A stretch of 64,000 nt of DNA from assembly GCF_048771995.1 (NCBI RefSeq), contig NC_133024.1:85044501-85108500 (forward strand). The letters are read 5' to 3'. This DNA is from Taeniopygia guttata (taxonomy: Eukaryota; Chordata; Aves; Passeriformes; Estrildidae). A program made the position numbers and the translations under genes. Below the pieces are notes generated by a model. That model was not told the DNA's origin and made no database searches. It saw only the letters and a list, made by a program, of their open reading frames with translations. Shown here piece by piece: positions 34,738-61,919 of this stretch (the first letter of the stretch is position 1; the number at the start of each line of letters is the position of its first letter).

Positions 34738-34838
34738 CTATCAAAGTGCTCAGTCCCCAGCTGTGTTTTGGTGATATCCAGTTCTGACTCTGAGTTGCTC
34801 TGTTTCTGAGGTGAGTAAATTCTTGATTCTGCACAGCA
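34738..34838 (-). pseudogene. TSGA10: TSGA10 exon i (frameshift)
   Basis: 101 bases, four fewer than the 105 implied by the human segment. AVQNQEFTHLRNRATQ (human AIQSRDVAQFRNVVTQ) is in one frame and LDITKTQLGTEHFDR (human LDITKRQLGTERFER) in another, a 4-base loss near 34789-34790. The donor is AG|gcaagt, a GC-type donor with otherwise perfect consensus. No downstream exon was found. Confidence 0.92.
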
Positions 34839-35158
34839 CTGTGAAGTCCATACAAATTAACTAGATAGTAACTGTAATTCTCTAAGCATTTAGCCACATG
34901 CAATTATTCAAAATTAAATGGACAGTTATATCATGCAAATGAGATTAAGAACATTTTTTGGAGCAAAATACAACACTATAAAGAAGAGTCTATTAGGGTT
35001 TAACTGAGAAATCCAAAGAGGTTTTTGGTATCTTCTGCTATTAATGTAGTAAAGGCACACTGGCCATTTGAAAATGCAGCTAGATATAAAACCACATGTT
35101 TTAAAATACATTGGAAATAATGAGAAAAACTGCAATACTCTCTTTGTCATTTACTCAC

Positions 35159-35355
35159 AGATTGTTTTCTACTAAAGAAAGCTGTTCCTTGTGAAACTGA
35201 ATTTCAGAGACTTTCTCTTGGTTTGCTCTCTGTGACTGAAATTCATTCTCACAACTGGACACAAGCGAAGATTCCAGGTTTTTTATAGATGCTTTTTCAT
35301 TTCCCAGTTGTTTTCTCAGCATCTCTGTTTCAGAATGGTTTGACTCACACTTGCT
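35159..35355 (-). pseudogene. TSGA10: TSGA10 exon h (open)
   Basis: 197 bases, open: [20 protein letters not shown], then [20 protein letters not shown] and [15 protein letters not shown]. It matches human DSAHSEIELLRSQMANERIS, LLVANRDKEYQSQIALQEKE and EIQLLKEHLCLAENK. Acceptor ctgcag and donor gtgagt are intact. It ends after two bases of a codon. Confidence 0.94.
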
Positions 35356-35417
35356 CTGCAGATAAACAAAGATTTTAAAGTTTCAGGTGTATGTCCATCA
35401 AGCTTACTATTGGGGTA

Positions 35418-35442
35418 ATCTTCAAATATATATATATATATA
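35418..35442. repeat. Short AT microsatellite
   Basis: About a dozen (AT) dinucleotides in the TSGA10 intron upstream of exon h. Confidence 0.8.
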
Positions 35443-37398
35443 TAAAAGGATCAATGGGATCAATGACAAAATTAATTTTCACTGCAAATGAGTGGTTAGT
35501 TTTATACTTTCCCAGTCAAAATCCTTTGTAAGATTTATAAAATCATCCAATGCATATATCTTAATATAAATATACTTGATACAAATGAGAAAATGCTATG
35601 AAATATATGGATCAATGGATTCTGTAGACAGAATCATTAATGAAGAGGAAGGAAGTTTCACATTTTGTTGAGGCAAGAAGCTATTGATTAACTGTTTGCA
35701 CACAGGAAATAACACGTGGTACTACAAAACAGTACCAGCATCACCAGCAGAGTGAGATTACACTTATTTTACTTACAGGAGCATCAAGAATAAACTGGGG
35801 GTTTATTTATCAAGAATAAACTGGATGCTGTTTTCCCTTCATCTTTTCATGTATGCATTATAGTCTAACTAACTGAGTCTGTTTGGGGTGCTGCAACACT
35901 TTTATCTGTATTTTACTCAAGCCTAGTTTACATAAAGCACAACAATGCTCAGCCAAAGGTCATGGGAAACTATGAACTGAGATATCTTAACAAATTCTCC
36001 ACCTCTCCACCACATTTCTTAGAAATTTCAGAAGATAACCATTTGTTGTTCAAAGGAGGAATACACTGGAAGAACTCAGATAATAGGCCAACAGAAGAAG
36101 AAAAAAGAAAAAAGCATTTGTAATTTATCAAAACAAAAGTTTTTTTTTCTTTTACCAAAGTAAACTGAAAGGTTTCTTCATTCTGAAAGTTTCGATTTTC
36201 TATGAACTCTCACTCAAAAATCTAGTTCCTTTGCAGAAAAACAGTTTTGATATTCTACATTTGTATTTCAGAAAAAAAGAATAATGTAGACAGAAGAAGA
36301 CATAGGAAAATAAACTGTATTAGAAACAGTGAAAGAACAATATTATTCAGAATCAGGTTTAGTTTCCACTTCTGCATATAAATATGCTGTAATCTAATAA
36401 GGCAGATTCTGCGCTGGAATACTGTGTAAAGCAAGAGACTTATCTGAAGGTTATACATGGCTAATGAAAGACTACTCTTTGAAAGATACAGAAAAATTAG
36501 TTAAAATTTCCCAACTTCTGACTTTTCTCCAACTCTCAAATCCGCATTTCTGCAGTTTTCTTTTCCAAAACTGTTGCTGGTCTCCGCAGTGCCAGCAGAA
36601 GGATCCAGAGAGGCTTAGCCATATTAGATCTCATAAAAGTTTCAGATAAATGCCATATGCTGGAACTCTTCCATATCAAAAGAATCATAGAGGATTTCAC
36701 AAGGCTACAAAAGACATCACACACATTTGACTGGAATGCAAAACCAACTGGCAAACAGCAGCTTTACCCACTGTGCTTCCAAAATACATAAAGGTTTACA
36801 GACTACTGGAAACCTATAAAGAACAAGAAAATATCTCATCTGGAGCAGAGGATGGATAGGTCAGTAATAGAATCACATTGAAAATACCTGAATAATCTGC
36901 GTGTGTTTGAACAACATTTCAAAGTTTATCCAAACTGAACTTTAAAAAATTTATGTATCACACATTAATTTTGTAGTTTTTGTAAAAATCAAGTCCAACA
37001 AAAACTGATTTCTAAGGGGAATTAAGAAAATATTAAAAATATTGATACTTACTAAAATAGTCAATCATTTCAAAGTTCCCACCAAGATTCATTGCTAACA
37101 ATCTTCTCTAGCTATACTGCTTATCTAGTGACTAGATGTAGAAGGTATCTTTCTTGAAAACAACAGTAATTTTTAGCTCACACTTTTGAATGTTCATAGT
37201 AAAACCCTGCAAAGCAGTGAGGCAGTGTCCCTTTCAAAAAAAGTGTTGAACTCATACCCTTTGAGGAGTAAGCTCCTGAGAAATGCCAAATTAAACATTT
37301 AAAAAATTTAAAAATGATCATTCATGATTCTAAAGTATATTTGGATCCCTTAAGTGTAACATTAACATAAACTTATTTTTCTAATATATTTCACATAC

Positions 37399-37595
37399 CC
37401 TTTCTACCTTCTCTGCTGTGGAAATTAAATGCTAATTTAATCATTCTTTGATTGCATCTGGTTTAATGCAAAGTTCTGGTGTAGATGTGACATTTTCAAG
37501 TACAGAGACTCTCTCCAAATGTATATTTCGAGGCCCTCTGCCCATCTTCACAAGAGAGTTGCTTAAGGCAGAAACAGAAGACTTGTATGCTGCTT
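37399..37595 (-). pseudogene. TSGA10: TSGA10 exon g (two stops)
   Basis: 197 bases. The codons run AAYKSSVSALSNSLVKM, later LERVSVLENVTSTPELCIK, against human RSYKSQISTLHKSVVKM and FEKVSALADLSSTRELCIK. TGA (37441-37443) and TAG (37432-37434) fall where human has LLNR, leaving E, stop, LN, stop. Acceptor caacag and donor GAAAGG|gtatgt are good, and the exon ends in phase 0 as the next one requires. Confidence 0.93.
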
Positions 37596-38585
37596 CTGTT
37601 GTTAAATGATACAGAAATGCAATATAAAACTCTACTAAAAAATTAAAATAACTTCCAAAATCCTACAAAATATCTCTATATAATTGTGGCAAATTTTAAG
37701 AGGCTGCAGCAATTTGTTCTACTGTAAACTTTATTTATTTAAATAACTCCTGTATATAAAAATTAGAGAAGTTCTTGCTTCTGACAGCAAACTTATCTTC
37801 CGGTGTTTTAAAATCTATTCCTGTAATTTTACTCCTTTTGCAGAGTTAATAAGGTTGAAAATTCTGCCATGGACTGCATTTTATTTTCAGATGAGATCCT
37901 CTTATTTTAGCAATAAAATTTGGTTTTGCGTGTAGATGATCTGTGAATGCTGAGATTCTGTCAGTCACATTTATACCACTGTCACCTGTAAATTCAGGCC
38001 TGACTAATGAGAGTCACATTAAAGTGGAGTCCACAAGGCAGCAGAAGCAGGTCTTACTAAAAGCATTAAGAATTTTGTACATTTCAAATTAACATAACCT
38101 AGGTTTTTCCTTTTTGAAAAATGCCTGTACTTTGCCCAGGGATATTCCTGGTCAGCCACTTTCAACTCCTTAACTTTCAGTGGGTGGCAGAATGAGTGTG
38201 GAAGGTTAACAGAGAAAAGTGAGAGGTAAGGCACTGTGATTTGCTTGAAGGATTTACTAGAAATGACATCCAAAGAGATTATTTTATGGGAGCATATCAC
38301 ATTAATTCTAGCTCTGTCTCACCAAAAAAAAAAAAAAAAAAGAACACAGAGATCTGCTGTGCACGTTAGGATTTTTGAATACAAACATCTGTGTTTTAGA
38401 TATGTGCCTTGCATATAACGGTATGAACTGGAATATGACATTTGGAATTCTAACCCAATACGCTGACATAGTGTTCATTAAGAGGCCTGTTCATTCCTAT
38501 ACTTAATAGCAGACATGTGGGAAGGAATTAGAAGGATGAAATGTCTGCTAGTTTCAGGCTTGTTGGACAAATTAGAACCATGTAC

Positions 38586-38672
38586 CTGTTTTATTTTCTC
38601 TTCAAGAAATGCCAAAATCTGCCACACCACCCTCCTGTGCTGTTTTGTTATTGCTGTGTTCTCATTCACTTT
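38586..38672 (-). pseudogene. TSGA10: TSGA10 exon f (probable, open)
   Basis: 87 bases, 29 open codons: KVNENTAITKQHRRVVWQ and on, ending EEKIKQ. It corresponds to the human segment running from EESENRQMMEQLRK to WENKARQ by position, length and a scatter of matches (EN, Q, R, E, K, Q). Acceptor gtttag and donor CAG|gtacat are good. Similarity is weaker than in the other exons. Confidence 0.65.
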
Positions 38673-39754
38673 CTAAACAGCAATCTTGATTCCTCTAGAG
38701 TATCTAATGTTCTTGAGTAGCACTCAGCAGCTTATGTGATGTTCAAGAAGCAGAGATGATCTGCAACAAATATTAGAGATCCTCCAAACCATGTTTATAT
38801 GCTCACAACATATTTCTAAAACCACACTATTAATTTTTCTTCAAGTTCTTCAGATTTTCAAGTGGGAAGAGGCTCTATGGGACATCTGAAACAGTGGAAA
38901 GAAGACTAAGAAGCTCAAAGCAAGAAGAGCAGGGACAGGAATATGACAGGATATGATTCAGGTATGCTGTGGAGTTGTGTATGACTTAATGCCTTCAATG
39001 ATTCCAAATCATGAGAGCATTTAATTTTTTTGTTTTCCTTGAATTTTTTTTTTAATATTTTTTTTCCAAAGTGTGACTGGTGGAATTCTGATAATATTAC
39101 TATATAAAATAAAAAGCATACAGTTCATGGTGGAAAATCTCCCTGAAATAGAAGTGGCATTATACATAATTTTAAAATATTACAAGACCATTTCAAGGGT
39201 GAACTATGGAAAGAATGATTTCAACTCAATTGCTCCATCTGTGTTTCAAGGGACTCTATTTTTCCTTTCCAACTGTGGCTCTCAGACTGCACTGATCAGT
39301 GCCAGTCTAACAGGAAAAGCCTGTTTCTCCTTCGTGGCATTTTGCTTCCCAACTTCCTTGTTCACAGGCTTTGTGATAATTCTCCAAGAGCTCACAGTTC
39401 TCCCTCCTAACACATAAAGCTTATTTATTTAATAATTTACAGTAAGCTCCAAAAAATAGGGATAATTATAGATCTACAGATACGGTATTGGATATACTCT
39501 TTCCACTGAAAATTCTGCCATTTAGTGAAAACATTGAGAGACTTCTCAAGAATCAGAGTTTTGTCCAAGATGAGTACATTTTAATGATCAATAGACATCT
39601 GTTCAGAATGGCTAGGTTAACATTAGACAAAGTATAGCAATATAGCGCAGTAATATTTCTTTTTATTTTAATCCCATAAAATAATAAAGAGAAAAGAGTT
39701 CCAGGTCTCTGTATTATTCCCTGTCTGATTTTTTAAATTTAATAAACATACATG

Positions 39755-39775
39755 TGTGTGTGTATATACATATAC

Positions 39776-39831
<56 letters not shown>

Positions 39832-39842
39832 GTATATATATG
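39755..39842. repeat. Compound TG/TA microsatellite
   Basis: A short (TG)n run followed by about 80 bases of (TA)n with occasional C or G interruptions, inside a TSGA10 intron. It can form cruciform or unpaired structure and is likely polymorphic. Long tyrosine/isoleucine open frames across it are artefacts. Confidence 0.92.
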
Positions 39843-40029
39843 TAAAACCACAATGAAATATTGTACATTAATTTTGTACTGCAAAAACAGCCATGAAAAT
39901 GTGTCCAAACTACTAAAACCAAATTAAGGGAATGCAAATGAGTTTTGGTTAGGAAGCAAATTCTTCTATGGAGATATAAAAAAATTTTACTTTTAGTTAA
40001 AAACCAACAGTTTTAATCTGTATACTCAC

Positions 40030-40140
40030 TTTAGACTTCAGCACATGCTTCAGACTGAAAATATCTCAGTTTTAATCCTGTGCTTTCAACTTCATATCGT
40101 CAAACTCAGTTTGGTACTTTGCTAGTTCTTTATATAGTAC
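40030..40140 (-). pseudogene. TSGA10: TSGA10 exon e (two stops)
   Basis: 111 bases, 37 codons: VLYKELAKYQTEFDDMKLKA, then QD, stop, N, stop, DIFSLKHVLKSK. Human has HNELNDIKQKVQDTNLEV and NKLKNILKSE. The stops are TAA (40072-40074) and TGA (40066-40068). Acceptor cttcatag and donor gtgagt are both still good. Confidence 0.9.
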
Positions 40141-43100
40141 CTATGAAGAAAGGTTTTTTCCATAAGGTTTAAGTATACTGCTTGTATCTTTAAAAAAAAA
40201 GAATTATACTGCTTGTACCTTAAAAAAAAAAAAAAAAAAAAAAGAATCTAAGGTCTACAGCTTTATTACTTTATTAACTCATTTTTAAAGGCTATGTGAA
40301 ATGTAAATTATGTCTATTTTTATAAACCAAATTTTTAATTTCTAAGAATTTCTTTTTTCCTTCTAAATAATGCTAAATCTTCTTAAAAAGAAGAAAAATA
40401 TCTGTAAAGGAATGTAGCCATTAAAAAGAAAAAAACAGATGGTTTATTTAGCATCTAGATTGTCCCATTTAACAAGCAGAGCTCAATCAGTTCCATCTCT
40501 ATCACATTACAGTTTTTTAAAAGCCTATATTTTTAAAAGTAGAAGACAGATAAAAAATTAAGTAATTTAATTATTACAGAATTGCTTACATTCTATTTAA
40601 TCAAATGCTTATTTCCCAATCAGGAGAAATAAAGCCACAAGTATTAAGAGAACAGACATAGAACTTCTGAGAATTATTTCTTGAGAAAGTGAACAGAAGG
40701 AGGAAAAAGAACTGCAGAAAGGCTGTCTTAAGCTGCACAGTTCAGAAACTTCTGTGCAAAAATACTAGGAGAACTCAGTTGCAAAAACTGGGGGAAGGTG
40801 TAGTGTGGGGAAGGCTCTATGGAGAAACCCTCATTCCTGTTGCAAAAAGGCTGTGAGGTCCTGAGAAAGGTGTTCTGGAAATTTTCCAGTAAACTCAAGG
40901 AAAGAAATAATAATACTTTAAATACTTGGAGTATCACCTCAACTAATGGAAGAGCCTGGAGGAACTAATACATATTCTAGAGGCAATCCTACAAAAAGTA
41001 CTTAATCCTATGAGACATTTTGTTTTCAGCTGCTTCTACAAGCATCCAGGTATTGCAAAGAAAACTGTGAAGCTTTCAAAAGTAGCTGGGAGCAACAGGA
41101 AGCTGCATTTTCTACCAGCTGATATCATCCTTATAAAGTGTGATTCCAAGAAGAGGTGAAGAAGTGATTCCCTGATGAACTTTTGGCAGTCAAAGCCACT
41201 ACCAACCTCACCTTTTCTAGGAGGGCACTTAAGAAAAAAAAATAGTATGTTTGGGAGAAAAGTTATTCAGAATGGAAGTGGTCTCAATGAAGAATTAAAC
41301 ACCTGATCTAAAGCCATTAGCTATACTACCTCTATAATGGAGAAAGATAAAACTCATCACTTAAAAAACTTGGGTGGAATAAATCTCCTGGAGGACATTT
41401 CTTCACTTAAAAGGGACCCTTAATGACTTAAAAGTTCTATATATCTGACATCAGGTACAGTTAATTTACTCCTTTAAAACTGAGTAGCACTTCTAGAGGA
41501 AGAGAAAGTCAAGTGAACAGTAGAGCAAGTTCGCAGATCAAGTACCAGAAAACCTAAATGAAGGCAAGAAGCTGAAGAAAAAGAAGAAAAACCACATCAC
41601 CACAGAAGTGATGAACTCCTACAGGTATTAAGCTAAATTTCTAGCTGCCTGGAAAACATATTGGTGCAGGAGTATTGTGTGTGCATGAGATGACACTTGA
41701 AATATTTTAACTACTTTCACCAGGAACTGCACAGAGATAAAAAACACAGTAGATAATGTAAGGCTGTATTATGACACACTATTTCAAGTATCTTCTATCC
41801 AAAAGCAACTCTTGAAGAAACATAAATACAGTATGTGTTGTCACTGAAACTTACCCTTGCCAGACATCTGTCACATAATTTTAAAATGCAAAAACCTTTC
41901 AATAATAAAAAAAAACCAAACCAAGAGTTCTGCATTCAGAATGTTAAAACTTTCAGAAGTATATTTATTTATTTGTTTGCATTCAATGCCTTTTCTTTCA
42001 ACCCATTAAAAGAAGATGACTGCAGAATATGACAATAAGCCTATTGAATTTTATTATAAAAATTGGATCTGTCATTCACCAGTTTTTAAATCTAAATTCA
42101 CAATTTTCTTATAACTAAGTTGCATTTCAAGTTTTTTCTTCACAAGGCTTCCCTGAATCTATGAAAGACTCAGTTCTGTCTTTTCATTGAATAAACTGGA
42201 AAAGCAGAAGCATTAAACAGGAGAATTCAGACATTGATATACTATTTTTTCTTTTATAAATGTCACTAGAATTGCAAAAGATAGGAAAAATTGAGAGTTT
42301 TTCTATCTATTTTAGACTGTTTGGGATATTTTATTAATGTTATCTTGAATCTCAGTGTATTAAATTCTGAGTAATTGCATAAAGGATTACAGAAAAGTAA
42401 GAGAATTCTTTGCAACAGGTGATCATAAGGAAATCACAAAAATAATTAAAATAAAAAATCACCACCTGGGACATCCATTGGAATGCTTGACCTGCTTCAA
42501 CTTATAACCAAGTTATATGTTAAAATGTAGTAATATTAATGATTCTCACACTTTTCAGGAAACTGAAAAGAATCATCAGTTTGGTTTGGGGGTGTAAAGA
42601 AAGAGATGTTTTAGTGACAGCGTCTAGTTTTCAACAATTGAACAGTGTTCATAAATCCGAGAATTTATTATAAAGCAGCACTCACTGACATATGTTTTAT
42701 TCCCTAAAGGCTTTGACCTAGTCTAGTCCCACTATGCTTCTGAACAGGACTGGGAACACCAGTTGAGCAGCAGACCATAAGCCCTACATAAAGATTCAGT
42801 TTTACTTCCTCTCATGAAAAGGCTCCAAGAGTAAGAAATGGATCTTTAAAACTAATGACATGACAGTCACTAGTTTATGCATTTGCCAATTTTCATTAAA
42901 AAAAATAAATTAAAATAACATTTTTCATATACTATTTACCAAAACCCATCAATCCCTGTAGTTTCTAACAGAAAGCTCCTAACTCTAAATTAAGTGAATT
43001 TTATTTTTTCACTGAAGATGGTTTCCACCATATCATCATATCAATAAGACAAGAACATTTACATATAAATAGGCAATGAAGAAAACAATTTAATTCCAAA

Positions 43101-43181
43101 ATGAAGGATGGCTCATAGCAGCTTTCATAAATTCCTTTCTCTTTGGCCCATATAACAGTTACCAAAAACAGTGAACATAGG

Positions 43182-43541
43182 TGTGGCAGCAGCTCTTTGG
43201 CTACAGAGAGAGGCACACAACTTTCCCAGGCCTTTCTGGGAAAGGCTGTGAGAAGATCAGAGAAAAGAATCAGAAACAATTCTTATCTTCACTTGCTGCA
43301 CCTGTTGTAGTGAACACGTGGAATGTGTTATGGAGATTTGTTTACCAAAGGGTGGTTTCTTAAATGACCAATGGTGATGGTGTTTAGATTGGAGGACCAG
43401 TTAGGTCCAGGTGGATTGTAACTGTCTATAAAAGCAATGGGTTTCTAATTAGGAATAAACTAATAAAGAGATTGATCAGCCTTCTGAGAGTCATGGAGTC
43501 AATGCTAAACCTTACCCAGCCGGGGGCCTGCTGTGGCAACA
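43182..43541 (+). mobile_element. Solo LTR of an endogenous retrovirus
   Basis: About 360 bases beginning TGTGGCAGC and ending GGCAACA, with a TATA box (43427-43434) followed by polyadenylation signals (43454-43459 and 43462-43467), so plus orientation, antisense to TSGA10. The flanks catagg and cacaga could be a diverged 6-base target duplication, suggesting an ERVK-type element of moderate age. No internal viral genes remain. It lies in the TSGA10 intron downstream of exon d. Confidence 0.75.
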
Positions 43542-43627
43542 CACAGACTGATATTACCAGTCAAATTAATGCAATTACATGATTTTACTTACTTAAGAGA
43601 AGCATATTCAGCTTCCTATCAACTCAC

Positions 43628-43743
43628 TCAGTTTCAGAATCCAGTACTTTTCTTGTCAATCTTTTCATCTCAGTTTCCAAAGAATCAATGGTGTCTTTCA
43701 TCAGTGCCACTGTAGACATCTGTTCTAACTGTTCACTATCTAA
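43628..43743 (-). pseudogene. TSGA10: TSGA10 exon d (open)
   Basis: 116 bases, open: LDSEQLEQMSTVALMKDT and on, matching human LDDERMEQMSNMTLMKET. It ends after two bases of a Glu codon (human exon ends DTESE). Acceptor tttatag and donor gtgagtt are intact. A solo LTR ends 86 bases away in the following intron. Confidence 0.92.
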
Positions 43744-45099
43744 CTATAAATATAATCAAACATTAACAGCTGAGGGGGGAAAAAAGAGCTGATTTATAGA
43801 ATTTATTTCAATTTTTACTCTGTTTCTAGCACAAATCTTTTGCTGAAGAAGAAATGTCCAAATATCTCATTTACTCAAGGCCTGACTCAGTTTACTGAAG
43901 ATAGTTGGCAAAGACCTGAAATGTGACTTTCACTTCTTTTGAAGGTAAATCTATTTCCCATCTTTTAGATCTCTGGGAATATTTTTATTTATTCATATAA
44001 ATTTTTGGTTGGTAATTACGCCCAAGGACAAAAATGTTTGTCATTGATCAACATTAAAAGTTTTCAGCACAAAATAGCATAGAAGAAAACATTATTATGA
44101 GTGTATGAATAGGGAGAAATCATGGTTTGGGACACAATATGACAAATAATGGCTTTCAGCCTCTATTAAGTTACATGCCTATGCCAATAACTAGGTAGAG
44201 AAATCACTGTAAAATGCTTGCATAAAGCACTATGTAACCAAGTTACCACCATGAGGCCTTCAGGTCTGTAGCTAAAACAAATAACAGATCCAAAATCTGT
44301 TCCACAGACTCCAGCAAAGCTGGTTTGAAATCCTCAGTCTAAAGAAACCTCTATCTTTTTATTAAAATACTTACACTTAACATTCAAAGAACTGTCCTTT
44401 CTAAATTATTTGAAACACATCTTTTAAAATACAAAAATCCTTACCCCATCTCTCTCCTCCTTTACCAAATTTTTCAGTACTAATTTCTATGTTACTATAA
44501 CCAAAGTTCAGGCTTCTAAAGATCAAGACAGTAAGCTTCTGGTATACAGTAACTTCTTCAATACTAGTGCCATAAATTTCATGTTGATGTATCACCCTCA
44601 AAGGTACCAAAAGAACTGAAGAAATAAGATGATGTATGTAAAACAGGGCTTCCAATACTCACTACATGTCAAATGTAGGTGTGTGATTAAAATTAATTTT
44701 CTACTCTGAGCTATTTCAGCCTACAGTGTATTCTTCATATCAGATGCACTCCATTTAATATTATAAACGGTGGTATTATATTTATAAGCTTAGCAGGATT
44801 TTAGAAGGCTGAGGCAAAAAAAGAAGATAAACCAGAATTTATAACCACAAGATCTAGAAGAAAGATATACAGCAGAAACCAATATTTATTTATTTAAAAA
44901 TCAACCAAGATTGTAAGTAAATTTACGATTTATATTCATTATATTAAGGTTTCCATTTTCTATTTTTGTGCCATTGATTAGCAAACAAGTGCACACACAA
45001 GTAACTTAAACCATATGAAATACGACTTGCCAGAACAGTGCAATTACATTTAGATTTGAGGCATCGGGTCTTAGTAATACACAGTCATAAAGTAATCCA

Positions 45100-45410
45100 C
45101 ATTTGAATAGACTCCAGGTCTCTAGTCCAAACCCCTGCTCAAAGCAGGACCAGCTCTGAGGTGAGGCCGTTCAGGGCTTTGTCCAGTCCAGTCCTGAAAA
45201 TCCCCAAGGCTGAGGACTACTCAACTGCCCTCATGAGAAGCAAGTATTTCCTTGTATTCAGCCTGAACTCTTCTAGTTTCAATGGCTGCCCATTTTTGCT
45301 CATCTTTCCACCAAGCACTGGAGTAAAAAGCCTGTTAATAACTTCTTGATGAACCTACTGGCAGGTAGGACTTATATCCCTCTTCTACTCCAGGTGAAAC
45401 AAGCCTATTC
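45100..45410 (-). repeat. Older CR1 LINE fragment
   Basis: Blocks such as tctagtccaaacccctgctc, then gtccagtccagtcctgaaaa and cagcctgaactcttctagtt match the complement of an older CR1 subfamily, in minus orientation. It abuts a second CR1 copy. Boundaries approximate. Confidence 0.7.
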
Positions 45411-45466
45411 TCATCTGGATATAAGATCACTGTGGGTAACACTGTCGAAGCTTGGTACAGTCTTAA

Positions 45467-46030
45467 AATCACAGAATCACAGAATGGTTTTAGTTGGAAG
45501 AGACTTTAAAGACCATTTAAAGACCAAAACCAGACTGGCTTTGAACACTTCCAGGGATGGGGCATCCACAACTTCTCTAGGCAACCTGTTCCGGGACTTT
45601 ACCACCCTCACAGTCAGAAATTTCTAATTTGTATCTAATCTAAACCTGTTGTCTTCCAGTTTAAAACCATTCCCTCTCGTCCTGTCACTACATGTTCTTG
45701 TGAAAACTCCCTCCTCAGCTCTCTTGCTGGTCCCCTCTAGGTACAGGAAGGCACCAAAACATGCCCCTGAAGTCTTCCCTTCTCCAGGCTGATCAACCCC
45801 AACTCTCTCAGCCTGTCTTTGTATGAGAGGTGCTCCAGCCCACTCTGATCATTTTCGTGGCCTCCAACAGGTCCACGTGACTATTAACGTTGGAGACCTC
45901 AGAGCTGGACACAGTTCTCCAGGTGGTGCCTTAACAGAGCAGAGTAGAGGGGAAAGAGTCTTGGTAAATAACATTCATGGCTCTCAGCCTGTTGTTTCCT
46001 GATAGCAGTCTGGCTGGTGCTGCAGGATTA
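45467..46030 (-). repeat. CR1 LINE 3' portion
   Basis: Starts with the CR1 tail complement (aatcacagaatcacagaatgg), then ttggaagagactttaaagac and onwards through the cccttctccaggctgatcaac block. About 560 bases, minus orientation, in the intron between TSGA10 exons c and d and ending only about 60 bases from exon c. Confidence 0.85.
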
Positions 46031-46087
46031 ACCAGGAACGTCACCTGTACTATATTTACAATTCCATAAATAATTATTTTCCCTTAC

Positions 46088-46165
46088 ATCGTGAATAGTA
46101 GTTTAAAGCTCTTCAATTCTCTGCTCCAAATGAGCCTTTTCATTAAACACACTCTCTTGGGAAAT
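46088..46165 (-). pseudogene. TSGA10: TSGA10 exon c (stop, damaged acceptor)
   Basis: 78 bases, 26 codons, the same length as in human: ISQESVFNEKAHLEQRIEEL, then a stop, then TTIHD, against human IAQETAFNEKAHLEQRIEEL, E, CTVHN. The TAA (46103-46105) replaces a Glu codon. At the expected acceptor the genome reads gatatgg rather than an AG ending. Donor gtaagg is good. Confidence 0.93.
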
Positions 46166-46351
46166 CCATATCAAATAACCCAACAACAAAAGCACATATA
46201 AACCAAGTCTCAACTCACCACAGACTTGTAAATCAATTAATTCTCAGGACCAGAAGAGAAATCCTTAGCAACTTTAATTACACTGCTAGGTAGTTTTCAT
46301 GTTTAAATAACGTGTGGGGTGGGGCTGAGGTGGGATGGGACAGAATCAAAC

Positions 46352-46532
46352 CTGTAACTGCTCCCTGAAGCTATCATGTTCCATAGACATCCTTCAGAAA
46401 TACGACAGTGCTGTATCCCTTTCTATCTCCATGTGTCTTAACACAGCTTGAGCTGTCACATGAGTGATAACTTTTAGGAGTCCTGGGGCATTTTACAACT
46501 TCCTGGAAAAGCTGGGAAATTTCCTTCCAGGC
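46352..46532 (-). pseudogene. TSGA10: TSGA10 exon b (frameshift and stop)
   Basis: Starts AWKEISQLFQEVVK (human AQEEITRLRREMMK) and ends RMSMEHDSFREQLQ (human RMTTERDSLRERLK). The length is 181 bases, one more than a multiple of three although both neighbours are in phase 0; the register changes around 46450-46475. A TGA stands at 46394-46396 where human has Arg, consistent with CGA to TGA. Acceptor aaacag is good; donor CAG|gtttga is weak. Confidence 0.92.
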
Positions 46533-46883
46533 CTGTTTTTAAAACGGTTGAATAACAGAAACATAGAATAGATAATCAATATATTACTGGGTCCTGTGGC
46601 GGTAATGTAGAGCATCCCAGAAACTGTGTAATATCGAAGATGAAGTAATCATTTGTGCACATATTCTTTGAATCAGGAAAGCATTTTTAACTCAAGACAG
46701 CACTTACAAACTTGTATTGAACTGACAGATTCAAATCACAGAATTTCCATAACTTTTTAAAAAATGTTTTTAAACAAATATTTTGCATTCTTTCTTTTTT
46801 CTTTCATACGAAACCAAAAGTATGTCTTTTTCTTGCACATTACCTTGTTATTTCAATTAATCACAAATATAAATAAAATTTAC

Positions 46884-47033
46884 CCTTTCATAAAGACTGA
46901 GAATTTTGTCTCTTTCTGCTGTTAAAACTTGGAAGTTACCCTGAATTTCTGCTATGACATTCATTAATTTTCCATGTTGACTCAAGTTCTTCATATTCAA
47001 TATTTTCAAGACTTCTGGATCAGAAACCACTTC
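46884..47033 (-). pseudogene. TSGA10: TSGA10 exon a (open)
   Basis: 150 bases, 50 open codons. It contains IAEIQGNFQVLTAERDKIL against human LAEIQGNVKVLKSERDKIF, ending SLYER (human LLYEQ). Acceptor ctttaag and donor GAAAGG|gtaaat are both good. The first 27 codons (EVVSDPEVLKILNMKN and on) go beyond clear human similarity. Confidence 0.9.
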
Positions 47034-48479
47034 CTTAAAGAATATGGTGATATAGTGTTAAAGCAGAAAAACAAAACTTGAAACACTTTCTTATTATATC
47101 TGGTCTGAAAACATCTATTATAGGCTCATTCCTATTTTATGCATCCTTCTGTTTACAATCAGCTAGTTTTTCTTCCTGGTAGTTATAGCTTTAGTAGTTT
47201 AACATGAGATATATTCTAAAAAATATATTCCTCCTCTTCCAAAGCTTAGGACTTCCCAAGCTCACCTGGATGGATGATTTTTTTTTTTTATGCTGCCACA
47301 AGTAGAGATTTACTTAGGACTTGAGACGTGTTTCTTAATACCTTTAACAAATCCTCAGTCTCACATTTATGGCAGTCTCTGTCCTTTTTCAGTGACTAAA
47401 TAAAGGCATCAAGCCTTGAAGGTGATTCCCTTGCTTTATTTCATATTCTCTTTGTAGCATAAGCTGCATTAGCATAAATGAGAGAATGCATGCACTGAAA
47501 TAAAACTTTTGTAATTAGTGATACTTCAATGTAAAATGGATAAATATACCCTTTAAAATGAAGATGAAGCAGATACCTAATCAAAATAAATATCCATATA
47601 ATACTTTAAAGTAACTTCTGAATGTCTGTATTTTCTCTTTTTTGTTATATTGCAAATATGCCTGAATGTCCTTCTAATATGTATCTAACAAGAAAGAAAG
47701 GGACATACAAGCTAAATGTTAATTAACTTGAAATATATCTGTTCAGAACCAAGGGTAGATTTGTACTGGAATATCTAATGAATTTTTAAATATGATAGAA
47801 AGTAGGCCACCATGTATGTTTAAGGTCCATGAAAGGTGAATTTTTGAAATGGAAATAAAGTAATGCACAAGTAAGTATTGTTGAAATCCAGAAAGTCATT
47901 TAAGAGCCTAAAGCAGATTCTGAAGATAAACCACAATTCTTAAATTCAAAATTGCACACCAAATCCCATTTGTTTAATAGTAAACTAATGTAATTTTGAG
48001 TCACTACAAAGATTAATTTCTAGAAATTGATTCCTACAATCGATTTTGGCATTCATACTAAAATTAATCATGTCCTAGGAGTACCTCTGATGATAAAGAC
48101 AGTCTACATATCTATTACAGTCATCATCACTATTGATATATCATGTAGATTAGGTGAATCCCATCCAAATACACTGTTCTCACTGAAAGAGGCACTCTCA
48201 AGTTCTGCAGTTATATGCATTTCCCTAGTCCTAGGGAAGGGAATCAGAGCAATCAAGCAACAGGCACCTTCAGTACCTCACTGAGCATTGAAGACTCAAA
48301 TTTACACACAGAATTTACACACACTTGTGAGTATTTGCTCACTCACAACTAGTAAAAGAGCACTTTTTGGAAAACATGATAATATTTATATATCCTAAAA
48401 TATATACTTATATTACACTTGCCGTATAGTGGTAAGAATTTACTGTTGTGACACATTTCACCACTGATTTGGAATGAAA

Positions 48480-54379: not shown

Positions 54380-54960
54380 GCTCCATCCCCGCCAGTGCCG
54401 CGGCCGCGGTGGGACAGGCGGGACGCGGCGCTCGCAGCCCTCGGCCCTCAGCCCTCAGCCCTCAGCCCGCAGCCCTCAGCCCGCAGCCCGCAGCCCTCAG
54501 CCCGCAGCCCTCAGCCCGCAGCCCGCAGCCCTCAGCGCTCGCAGCCCCCAGCCCGCAGCCCTCAGCCCGCAGCCCTCAGCCCGCAGCCCTCAGCCCTCAG
54601 CCCGCAGCCCTCAGCCCGCAGCCCGCAGCCCTCAGCCGGCCCCGGCCCCCGGCGGCGCAGCGCCCGCCCCGGCACCTCTCACCCGGGAAGCGGAAGGCGC
54701 TCCCGAGGCCGCAGGTTGCGAGGGGCCCGCAGGGGCCGGGCCGGGCGCTGGGACCGCTCAGCTCCTCACCGTGAGTAGCGCAGCGGGGCTGTGCGGGCGG
54801 AGACGCGGCGTCGGGGGCTGAGGGACGCCGCGCCAGGAACCCCGCGGAAAAGAAGGCAAAAAGACCTAACAAAGCTGGACTACGCGCAGTGAAACCGAAT
54901 TGGGAAGGCTGGGTTGAGTCAGGGGAAATACACATTCCGTTTGTTCCTTTGATCTTTCAG
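54380..54960. promoter_or_regulatory. LIPT1 promoter region, first exon and first intron
   Basis: GC-rich, CpG-containing sequence around the minisatellite and down to a plus-strand donor ctcacc|gtgagtag (exon end 54770). The matching acceptor gatctttcag lies at 54951-54960, so the 190-base intron is 54771-54960 and exon 1 is non-coding. In mammals this interval is a divergent promoter shared with TSGA10 on the other strand. Whether minus-strand initiation survives here is unknown. Confidence 0.65.
54434..54640. repeat. Heptamer minisatellite (CAGCCCT/CAGCCCG)n
   Basis: About 28 tandem 7-base units, nearly all CAGCCCT or CAGCCCG, with one interruption near 54533-54550. Larger blocks such as T-G-G alternation suggest higher-order duplication. 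The minus strand carries GGG every seven bases, so many G-quadruplexes could form, with i-motifs on the plus strand. It sits between the CR1 and LIPT1 exon 1, inside the GC-rich promoter zone. Seven is not a multiple of three, so all forward frames read S/P/Q/A/R repeats; these are not proteins. Confidence 0.95.
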
Positions 54961-55206
54961 GCAGCGGGGCCTGCGAGGAGCAGCGGCTGTGACACCCGCG
55001 GATGTCTGGTGAGGCTCCCGCGGGGTCTGAGCGGCAGCGCCGGAGGAGCGCCGTGCCGGGGAGCTCGCTGCTGCTCTGGGAACAGCCTGACTGCCTCATG
55101 CCGCCGCCGGCATTTCGGTTCTGTCACAGGAGCCGGCCGCGCTCCTGCCGCATTCAGCGTTAGCAGAGCAGGCATTCCTTCCATCCGCTGTGCAGTTATT
55201 AGAAAC

Positions 55207-56325
55207 ATGGTGCTCCAGTCATTGAAAAATTGCCTTTGGCTGTCCTGCGTCCTCAGGACTCCAAAAGCTTGCTTCTGGAGCACAGTTGGTGGAGCCCTCA
55301 TTATCCAGTCTGTTTCTAATGATGTTTACCAAAATCTAGCTGTGGAAGATTGGATCCATGACCACATGGATTTAGAGAAGCAACAGATCCTTTTCCTTTG
55401 GAGGAATTCCCCTGCTGTGGTAATAGGGAGACATCAGAATCCCTGGCAGGAATGCAACCTCAGGCTATTGAGGCAAAAAAATATAAAACTAGCCAGGAGA
55501 AGAAGTGGAGGAGGGACAGTTTACCATGACTTAGGTAATATCAATTTGACTTTCTTCACAACCAGAAAAAAATACGAACGAATGGAAAACCTGAAGCTCG
55601 TTGTGAAGGCACTGAAAGCCTTGCGACCCCAGTTAGATGTACATGTCACTGACAGATACGACATCTTGCTAGACAGGCAATACAAAATCTCAGGCACCGC
55701 TGCAAAGCTGGGAAGGACAAGTGCTTATCACCACTGTACCTTACTCTGTAATGCAGATAAGTTTGTTTTATCTTCTGTGCTAAAAAGTCCTTTTAAAGGG
55801 CTAAAGAGCAATGCCACTCCTAGCGTGCCTGCCTTGGTGAAAAATCTCTTTGAAGAGGATCCCAGTTTAACTTCTGAGATGCTCCTGGATGCCATTGCTA
55901 AAGAATATGCTGTGCAACACCAGATAGATCACCATATCACCTTAATAAATCCAACTGATGAGACTCTGCTTCCTGGAATTAGTAACAAAACTAAAGAACT
56001 ACAAACCTGGGAATGGGTGTATGGAAAGACACCAAAGTTCAGCATTAGCACATGTCTTAACATGAACTATAAAGATTCTGTTCTTGACGTTAAAGTAAAT
56101 ATGGACGTAAAGCATGGACGAATTGAAGTCTGTAACATTGATCTGCCAGAGCAGTGGCTGCCACCAGAACTGTACAGTGAACTGGTCAAGAGTCTTATTG
56201 GCAGTAAGTTTTGCCCAAATGAAACCACTACGCTTGTTACAACATTGCTAAGAGTATGTCCACAAGATGATGAGTTGCACAGCAGGTGGAGTCTACTATG
56301 TGAGAATATGATAAGGTTAATGTGA
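55207..56325 (+). CDS. LIPT1: Lipoyltransferase 1, mitochondrial
   Basis: 372 residues in a single exon, matching human LIPT1 (373) from end to end. LIPT1 moves lipoyl groups onto the E2 subunits of pyruvate, 2-oxoglutarate and branched-chain dehydrogenase complexes in the mitochondrial matrix. It belongs to the BPL/LplA/LipB family. Visible motifs: [14 protein letters not shown] (71-84), [20 protein letters not shown] (97-116), the conserved lysine in KISGTA (160-165), YHHCTLL (174-180), and the C-terminal accessory domain with [15 protein letters not shown]. The first ~30 residues are weakly conserved and look like a mitochondrial targeting peptide. The frame is also open upstream, back to 54889 across the intron, but homology sets the start at 55207. 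Exon 2 begins at 54961, leaving ~246 bases of 5' UTR. An ATTAAA at 56385-56390 is the likely polyadenylation signal. Confidence 0.97.
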
Positions 56326-59431: not shown

Positions 59432-61919
59432 TCACATTTGCTTTGTGTGTTTAGTATGAAAGACATCCACTGTTGTTTCATGACAAGGTCTCAAGTCCAA
59501 GTCACAGTATCCAATGCTGAAACGACCCTGCAGAGATGAACAAAATCGACATGGTGAGCATATACTGTAGAAGAGCTAATTTTAAGTTAATTAAAGAAGT
59601 CAAAGCATCCTTACCTGTGGTTTCTTAAAATAATCAAGACCCCTTCCAATCTTAATCATCCATCCATTGTTGAATCTGTTTTAAAAATGCACAATAAAAA
59701 AGTTACATCCACATGATGCACAAGCTCCTTGTTTCAATCACAATTCTTTCAATCACAGTTAGCTCCGAGCATCACCAATACCTGTGTGAACCACAGAAGG
59801 CACCATTCTGTAGAGAGATATTATATATCTAATACTAATATTATATTCACAATTAGAAAATATAGAACTACAGAGGGCTGATTTCATCCAGTGAGGGCCA
59901 CTGCCTCTTACTTTGTTAGCCACAGCAACTTATGGTTAAATAGTTTGACTTCAAATAACTGCCATTTGGTCATTTTTTTATATCACCTACCTGATTTCTC
60001 GATCATGTATGGAAGACGAAAATTCAATACTCAGTGTTACTCCATAATTACTCAATGACTGTTTTATTCCTTCCAAGGCAATCCTCTGTTCACTCCTACT
60101 ACCCTATCAAAAGTAAAAATAACATGATGGGCTTTTGTTTTCTTTTTTAAACTATATATTCTACTTCTGGTCACCACTTCTTAAACTCACACACAAAACC
60201 TTTTCAGCATCAAAGCAAACCAAAAGAAAGGAAGAAACTTGGATGAAGGCAGTTTTACAGTTTCAAAGACAGGATAAAAAGCAGACAGACTACAGGTATA
60301 TTTGCTGAGGGATATGGAGGATGAGCTCACTCTCAGCCCTTTGAAACTAGATAGGTACTATTTAAGTGCAGTAATAGTTTAAATAAGTGCAGAGGTAGTT
60401 TGACAGATTTCAGCTCATGAAAGCCTCTAAAATGACAAATACAGCTGTTGGAAGAGCAAAAAAACCCTTGTCTTAACAGATGCTTTGGTTTTTATGACAT
60501 TTTCCACAACAAAACTTTTACAGAAATTTCAGTTTAAGATTCTGCTTACTCAGAATTTGTTAACCAGAAAACTCTGAACTTACAAAATTAATTACGTTCA
60601 ACTACCTAGGAATGAGCCTGTATTTTTATATTTTGTTTTACATGTGGCATCATCAGTACAGGGAAACAGAACCCAAAATCTAGACACTTACCTCATCACA
60701 GGAAGTAAGGAGATGGATTGTTTTCACCTTGCATGGCCCCTTAACTAGCATCTCACAGAACCGTAGAAAGTTATACAGCTGAAAAAGTTTTATTTAATTT
60801 AGTAGCTTGGAATTTCTCTAGTGGTTGATGTTTGTGTACTAATCTGTATTAGTTACACCAAATATCAACTTGCCTGATGAACCTGTCGAATGTATGGATC
60901 TTCCACCCAAACTTCAGAAACAATCTCAGTGAGGTACTCGTGGAAAAGCTTTTCATAGCCAAAACCTGTTGCATTTTCTTCTATCCTGATTTGCTTATGG
61001 TATTTGCCATCTGAAAAGAAAGTAAATCACTTTTGAAGTAAAGGTCAGGACGTAATTTTCAGGTTAAACCACCTCCTTCATCAAACATTCACATAACAAC
61101 AGACATTTAAAAGCAAACGGGTATGTCAGGTACATCCCAGCTCATGGAACCATGGAATGGGTCAGGCTGGAAGGGACCACAGTGGGACATCCGGTCCAAC
61201 TCCTGCTCAAGCAAGGTCATCCCAGAGCACGTGGAGAGGATTGTGTCCAGACAGTTCTTGAGTATCTCCAGAGAAAGAGACTCCATAACCTTTTTGGAAA
61301 ATCCGTTGCAGTGTTTGGTTTCACGCACAGTGAAGAAGTTCTTCCCCATGTTCACGTAGAACTTCCTGTGCATCAGTCTCTGCCCCTTGCCTCCTGTCCT
61401 AGTGACTGGCATTACCAGGAAGGGCCCGACTCCCTCCTCTGGGTATCCCCCATTTAGGTATTTATACCTTGTTTCTCTTTCTCAATGTGTTTTTTGATGT
61501 CCTCGGCTCTGGTCATGTACTCGGATATCTTCTGCCGGTAGCGGTGCTTCTTCGCCTCATCTGTCGTGGCTGTGAATCACAAAAAGTCACGGGCCAACTG
61601 AACACAGGGGCCGCCCTCCCGGGAGCCCTGCCCGGCCCGGCTGTCCCGGGATCCCTGCCGCTCCCCTTCCCTCCCTCGCTGCCCCGCTCCCCGCGGGGCT
61701 CCAGCCCTGTTCGCGTGTCCCCAGGGCCGGCCCGAGCCCCGAGAGCGCCCGGCCCGCACCTTTCACCACCTGCAGCAGGAGGTCGATGCCCTCCTGGTAA
61801 CACACCAGCGACTCCTGGAACCGGCACGCCACGTCCAGCTGCACCGCCCGCTTCACCGTCTCCACCCCGGCCCGCTCCAGCGCGGCTGTGCCATTGCTCC
61901 CCGCCCGCGACATGGACAT
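59432..61919 (-). CDS. MITD1: MIT domain-containing protein 1
   Basis: Seven coding exons: 61760-61919, 61468-61569, 60874-61010, 60692-60778, 59991-60103, 59615-59675, 59432-59527. They total 756 bases, 251 residues (human 249), all phases consistent and all frames open. The N-terminal MIT domain (about 16-90; [31 protein letters not shown], then [20 protein letters not shown]) binds ESCRT-III tails. The C-terminal phospholipase-D-like domain (about 95-245; [80 protein letters not shown]) binds membrane, lacks PLD activity in the family, and aids abscission in cytokinesis. Intron 3 has a GC donor (CATCAG|gcaagt); using GT instead would drop the conserved VHQ. A CR1 lies in intron 2. Two ATGs are possible, 61919 and 61913; the first is chosen. 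It shares a promoter with MRPL30. Confidence 0.96.
61140..61457 (-). repeat. CR1 LINE 3' end in MITD1 intron 2
   Basis: Complement of the CR1 tail: ggctggaagggaccacagtg, agcacgtggagaggattgtg, cacgtagaacttcctgtgca. About 315 bases, in sense with MITD1, ending about 10 bases from the exon 2 donor at 61467. Confidence 0.9.

Follow-up and report, generated by a model that had tools for sequence, protein, structure and literature searches.

Has the zebra finch (Taeniopygia guttata) lost TSGA10, a gene required for male fertility in mammals, and if so, when did songbirds lose it? The question is raised by a 64,000-nucleotide stretch of the zebra finch genome (assembly GCF_048771995.1, NC_133024.1, positions 85,044,501 to 85,108,500), referred to here as the window, which belongs to contig C1 in a genome of 1.14 Gb and 41 contigs. 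Eleven TSGA10 exon remnants are found in order on the minus strand at 34738-47463 of the window, beside an intact LIPT1. An initial annotation of the window described the locus as a unitary pseudogene. This description is upheld by synteny with LIPT1 and MITD1, retained introns, many independent lesions, lost constraint and a search of the assembly that found no second copy. It is very probable, judging from the lesions and the protein models of other birds, that TSGA10 was inactivated in place on the songbird lineage before the split between Corvides and Passerides and has drifted neutrally since.

Exon remnants and lesions

Lesions are called by a frameshift-aware alignment of the window to the TSGA10 protein of the stork Ciconia (P0016, 796 residues), with the addition of one optional exon from Cathartes. 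Residue numbers refer to the stork reference unless stated otherwise, and the ends of the exon remnants are read by eye from the sequence. The alignment yields 11 in-frame stops, nine frameshift sites and one AG-to-GG acceptor change, and lesions are present in 10 of the 11 remnants, in exon B solely as a compensating pair.

Taken in the order of the former transcript, all on the minus strand, exon A (47266-47463, residues about 109-179) carries the stops TAG at 47398-47396 and TAA at 47312-47310 together with frameshifts near 47427 and 47326. Exon B (46884-47033, residues 180-230) retains both splice sites and is intact only in appearance, as its frameshifts at 46994 and 46959 compensate for one another; this pair is among several frameshifts that were absent from the initial annotation. 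Exon C (46352-46532, residues 231-288) has a stop TGA at 46396-46394 and a 7-base insertion near 46463, which is the source of the net +1 shift previously noted for this exon. Exon D (46088-46165, residues 289-314) contains the stop TAA at 46105-46103, and the reported change of its acceptor from AG to GG is read directly at 46167-46166. Exon E starts at 43743 and extends to 43593 (residues 315-364), with a 1-base deletion near 43626 that creates a false donor, GTGAGT, at 43627-43622, followed by the stops TGA at 43621-43619 (R356) and TAG at 43618-43616. A single stop, TAG at 42161-42159, is found in exon F (42080-42195, residues 365-402), and two, TAA at 40074-40072 and TGA at 40068-40066, in exon G (40030-40140, residues 531-567). 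Exon H (39230-39406, residues 568-629; its low end is a guess) has frameshifts near 39312 and 39287 and has apparently lost its donor, with TTGAGT in place of the presumed GTGAGT. Exon I (37399-37595), the optional exon aligned to Cathartes, carries the stops TGA at 37443-37441 and TAG at 37434-37432. Exon J (35159-35355, reference residues about 701-767) has an open frame and both splice sites and is the sole exon free of lesions. Exon K (34738-34838) has a GC donor and the 4-base deletion (one codon plus one base) already placed near 34790, here near 34792. A sequence at 48110-48196 on the minus strand may derive from an alternative first exon of the Falco protein (score 77 versus a maximum of 49 in 20 shuffles); it is seen with that protein in a comparison that covers at least five of ten proteins.

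The initial annotation recognised nine ordered exons and listed six stops. The order stands and the count rises to 11, with the possible alternative first exon in addition, while each of the six stops is present where it was placed and five more (47398, 47312, 43621, 43618 and 42161) complete the list.

The frame of the relic is interrupted at 11 of 546 codons, whereas the two alternative frames, with 526 codons each, contain 42 and 48 stops; this scarcity indicates that the frame belongs to a former gene. An AG acceptor is retained in 10 of the 11 remnants, as is a GT or GC donor (one GC), and the introns are still in place, so the locus is not a processed copy. No convincing match to stork residues 19-108, residues 403-530 or the last exon is found, either in the stretches where they are expected or by tblastn over the window, and the final exon expected after exon K is not detected downstream. 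In the expected stretches the scores are 36 versus a shuffle maximum of 35 for residues 19-108, 34 versus 41 for residues 403-530 and 29 versus 40 for the last exon; a retained exon scored in the same way as a control gives 243 versus 34. For residues 19-108, and likewise for 446-490 (34 versus 33), the score is one point above the highest of 20 shuffles; the peptides involved bear no resemblance to TSGA10.

Identity and copy number

The read-through protein, with X at the stops, matches the TSGA10 of many birds (best E value 2.1e-140). Among the matches listed (best 120 of 200), all are named TSGA10 save a few unnamed, uncharacterised or hypothetical proteins, and a phylogenetic tree nests the relic among songbirds. 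Searches of Pfam and of solved structures with the same protein return nothing over the curated cut-off and nothing convincing. The relic stands head-to-head with LIPT1, with MITD1 beyond it, and the mammalian gene order is TSGA10-LIPT1-MITD1. It thus shares exon order, sequence and synteny with the TSGA10 of other amniotes and differs from them in its 11 stops and in having no detectable start, middle or last exons.

A search of the assembled genome with falcon TSGA10 gives 12 exon matches at E values up to 0.001, of which this locus has seven and contig C5 has five, and the 181-base exon C occurs once. We take the C5 locus to be the paralog CEP135, a centriolar coiled-coil relative. Three of its exons were read and, unlike the relic, keep an open frame as far as their splice sites; one corresponds to exon J and another to exon H. 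A second intact TSGA10 locus had been named as a finding that would overturn the initial annotation. At this threshold no second TSGA10 is found in the assembled 1.14 Gb, an assembly without germline-restricted DNA, and the relic and the C5 paralog are the only loci found.

TSGA10 in other birds

Protein searches cover the best 120 of 200 and the best 120 of 389 matches, clustered at 90% identity; a passerine concealed in a cluster named for another bird, or ranked lower, is possible in these sets. Among the matches listed, many non-passerine birds have TSGA10 models, some of them partial, the stork protein being one example of an intact non-passerine orthologue. Four non-passerine models listed are labelled LOW QUALITY (Rhynochetos P0018, Pluvialis P0022, Podargus P0031 and Alca P0042), a label that we read as a model corrected for stops or frameshifts. 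These four have 2-4 small indels each, and separate decay in some of them is possible.

Passerines among the matches listed amount to ten species. Five oscine models are LOW QUALITY (Sylvia, Cyanocitta, Passerculus, Acridotheres and Ammospiza), the Corvus model is uncharacterised, and those of Zosterops and Mimus are short hypothetical fragments. The suboscines Pitangus (313 aa) and Willisornis (193 aa) are represented by unnamed hypothetical proteins. No ordinary full TSGA10 is found in these 10 species, a result given without a control search for passerine coverage of the database. All eight oscine models, including the Zosterops and Mimus fragments, lack the N-terminal exons and the last exon. 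Small indels are counted in 52 ordinary non-passerine bird proteins (stork reference included) and in the LOW QUALITY models. They number 0.10 per 100 residues in the 52, 0.3-0.7 in the four LOW QUALITY non-passerines and 1.1-2.8 in the five LOW QUALITY oscines.

Lesions shared across songbirds

The first 160 database proteins are free of X residues, so a stop replaced during annotation should appear as a missing residue. The residue at R356, where the window has the TGA at 43621-43619, is missing in five oscine models: Sylvia, Cyanocitta and Acridotheres are flagged by script, and Passerculus and Ammospiza, with short flanks, by eye. The Mimus model ends one residue ahead of R356. The lesion is therefore inferred in six of six informative oscine models, one corvid and five Passerides, in addition to the window DNA, with basal oscines outside the sample. 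As it occurs in both corvid and Passerides models and is common to all informative oscines, the gene was probably dead before the Corvides/Passerides split, and the oscines appear to share their first lesions. The initial annotation had proposed a search for stops shared across oscines with an intact gene in non-passerines, and at the protein level the outcome for oscines is positive.

Other lesions are more restricted, and most are not common across lineages. Cyanocitta and Sylvia also lack a residue at R380, where the window reads GGA. Passerculus and Ammospiza lack a residue at E309, where the window has the stop TAA at 46105-46103, and both have a two-residue insertion at the site of the seven extra bases in exon C of the window. 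In the tree the window joins these two species with support 95; supports are 97 for suboscines, 100 for corvids, 98 for Passerides, 99 for oscines and 95 for passerines, and the order of branches matches accepted passerine relationships. Old shared and young private lesions placed on the species tree form the pattern expected of a single ancient loss. Other unitary pseudogenes and lineage-specific losses are likewise single-copy genes decaying in place with old shared and young private lesions; TSGA10 is distinguished from them by its requirement for mammalian male fertility.

Loss of constraint and age

Sites are classed by their conservation in 28 non-avian amniotes, and change is scored against a bird consensus where the local alignment is good. 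The sample was chosen by hand from the listed matches and consists of 55 non-passerine birds (4 of them LOW QUALITY), the 10 passerine models and the window. In the 55 non-passerines, 1119 of 12858 conserved and 2402 of 15227 variable sites are changed, a ratio of 0.55. The eight oscine models and the window together have 251 of 1295 conserved and 247 of 1216 variable sites changed (ratio 0.95), and the window alone 44 of 209 and 41 of 193 (ratio 0.99). The fraction of conserved sites changed is 0.155-0.223 in every oscine, above the highest non-passerine value of 0.139. This protein-level comparison of conserved and variable sites supports neutral evolution of the relic since its loss, with constraint gone.

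The density of stops implies 0.14-0.17 neutral substitutions at each site (95% interval about 0.07-0.30). If substitution rates of 2.0-3.3e-9 per site per year are assumed, the age of the loss would be some 43-85 million years, or 21-153 million years when count error is included. This estimate agrees with a loss on either the songbird or the passerine stem and is too coarse to separate them.

Weighing the alternatives

Several observations count against a single loss at the base of the sampled songbirds. The Corvus, Zosterops and Mimus models have just 0 to 2 small indels, and the first two of these pass over the stretch around R356 and are uninformative there. Oscines other than the zebra finch are represented by protein models alone, and their stops are deduced from these. 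The codon for R356 resembles a CpG site (CGA to TGA), a type prone to parallel change. Single-species ratios of change overlap, ranging from 0.31 to 1.05 in non-passerines (Cathartes 1.05, Rhynochetos 0.99) and from 0.63 to 1.30 in oscines. The bird consensus is built from non-passerines, which lowers their own rates of change, and the oscine rows are related rather than independent.

The timing of the loss is the point most exposed to revision. TSGA10 could have been freed from constraint earlier, in the ancestor of all passerines including suboscines, with the R356 lesion added by oscines; we regard this as a real possibility, though not the expected one. No suboscine TSGA10 appears among the best 120 hits listed per search; the Pitangus and Willisornis fragments are the only suboscine sequences obtained otherwise. 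Both change conserved sites (15 of 87 and 9 of 56, little sequence in either case) faster than all 55 non-passerines, a sign that constraint may have been relaxed earlier, and the stop-based age extends to the passerine stem. Conversely, a shared lesion was sought in the two suboscine fragments, of which one is informative, and none was found: Willisornis reads Q at R356 with no small indel flagged, its later part aligning poorly, and Pitangus skips the R356 stretch. Both suboscine proteins are moreover unnamed and hypothetical, and the samples are tiny. As a separate observation, the models of the suboscine Pitangus (P0173) and of Zosterops (P0161) cut exon E at SETD, stork residue 353, which corresponds to the false GTGAGT donor in the window.

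Separate losses in several oscine lineages after a relaxation of constraint, with R356 mutating in parallel, would account for the many lineage-specific lesions and draw on the CpG-like nature of that codon. Such a history is unlikely given that the R356 lesion recurs in six models and the window, that the R380 residue is missing in both Cyanocitta and Sylvia, and that no oscine model shows the first or last exons.

A working TSGA10 might instead reside on the germline-restricted chromosome or in unassembled sequence, the somatic copy having decayed as redundant. Songbirds do carry such a chromosome, absent from somatic cells (PMC9508068), and its genes would explain how a germline gene could be missing from somatic DNA; nothing places TSGA10 among them. 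According to the same source, the chromosome is lost from the nucleus when male germ cells pass through the first meiotic division, and its expulsion follows (PMC9508068). Its exit precedes the elongating spermatids that would need TSGA10, which makes a rescue copy very improbable, and among the papers listed on this chromosome none names TSGA10 in its main text.

There is similarly little room for a locus that stays active by leaving its damaged exons out of the transcript, giving a truncated protein or a functional RNA. The undamaged exon J and the retained splice sites would permit it, but J stands alone in being free of lesions, no start exon is found and conserved sites evolve at the pace of variable ones. 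Sequencing or assembly error, for which the four LOW QUALITY non-passerine models could be cited, is refuted in practice: the damage is too widespread, as the initial annotation maintained, the neighbouring genes are open, other songbirds appear to share some of the lesions and the three exons read in the C5 paralog, from this same assembly, are open.

Neighbouring genes and other features of the window

LIPT1, the head-to-head neighbour that fixes the synteny, is an intact single-exon frame of 372 residues, held in an open reading frame at 54889-56325 on the plus strand. It aligns to solved LIPT1 across 343 residues, in agreement with its earlier description as intact. MITD1 (59612-60966, minus strand) is named by an MIT_C family match and by its position. 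The earlier claim that it is intact holds for the three exons of this C-terminal family that were checked, whose frames run uninterrupted to the splice sites.

Two open stretches on the minus strand were considered as 5' exons of TSGA10 and rejected. The first, MRYSLRGTPKSSKGEVFMASYQKKRISSGLPQTRRRHGD (54105-53996), follows an acceptor-like site near the LIPT1 promoter island and matches none of the 160 database proteins. The second, EFQSYTPVGTTAIMIILESKSKENKNAEMARLLESYL (49850-49740), is exon-like, with an acceptor and a GTAAGC donor, and has one weak match to TSGA10 among the 160 proteins (E value 0.47). Upstream of LIPT1, a GC-rich tandem array of GGGCTGCGGGCTGA-type units at 54450-54640 adjoins a GC-rich promoter stretch and creates long spurious open reading frames in several frames.

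Sperm biology and significance

Cleavage of mammalian TSGA10 yields a tail part and a second, centrosomal part, to which ODF2 binds. In humans its loss leads to sperm without heads, and infertility with a disordered mitochondrial sheath is reported for male mice heterozygous for a deletion of Tsga10 (PMC10840149, PMC12901780). The mitochondrion of passerine sperm is single and helical, and a table in a review of these cells lists the annulus and proximal centriole as absent and the fibrous sheath as prominent (PMC8812575). Among songbirds the proximal centriole is kept to a varying degree, and the distal centriole is kept by all species (PMC9828668). The initial annotation had connected the loss to a reduced sheath and a reduced centriole apparatus in passerine sperm. 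The first finds no support in the table, where the fibrous sheath is prominent (PMC8812575); as to the second, the proximal centriole is absent in that table and variably retained among songbirds according to the other paper (PMC9828668). TSGA10 has one mention in the portions covered of the passerine review, in connection with human mutations (PMC8812575). In the open-licence literature on TSGA10 in birds (titles and the openings of abstracts), passerines and the zebra finch, no published report of its loss was found, nor did one appear among the matches listed for open-licence work on gene loss and on suboscine and oscine sperm centrioles, so it may have been reported elsewhere.

The proposed sequence of events starts with TSGA10 being killed in place on the songbird lineage, ahead of the Corvides/Passerides split. 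The dead locus would then have drifted neutrally, gaining stops and frameshifts and losing splice sites and, probably by deletion, exons. The role lost, as judged from mammalian work, may have been to organise the centriole and midpiece in spermatids. Songbirds might have dispensed with this role as the neck and midpiece became a single helical mitochondrion, or passed it to other proteins. It is a tentative suggestion that the disappearance of TSGA10 in the ancestor of songbirds belonged to this rebuilding of the sperm, or permitted it, a change in which the mitochondrion became fused and helical and the annulus and often the proximal centriole disappeared. A link between the loss and the change in midpiece and neck is plausible and speculative, and cause and effect are indistinguishable from sequence. 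The set of neck genes has not disappeared entirely, since the genome still contains two open exon matches to one further member, SPATA6.

As mammalian TSGA10 resides at the centrioles and gives order to the mitochondrial sheath, its loss would mark the change in songbird sperm genetically and provide a roughly dated landmark for it. Partners that could be compared between songbirds and other birds include ODF2, CEP135 and SPATA6. If the loss is as proposed, thousands of species join sperm head and tail by a route independent of TSGA10, and a bird radiation living without the gene would show that the mammalian requirement for it is not universal.

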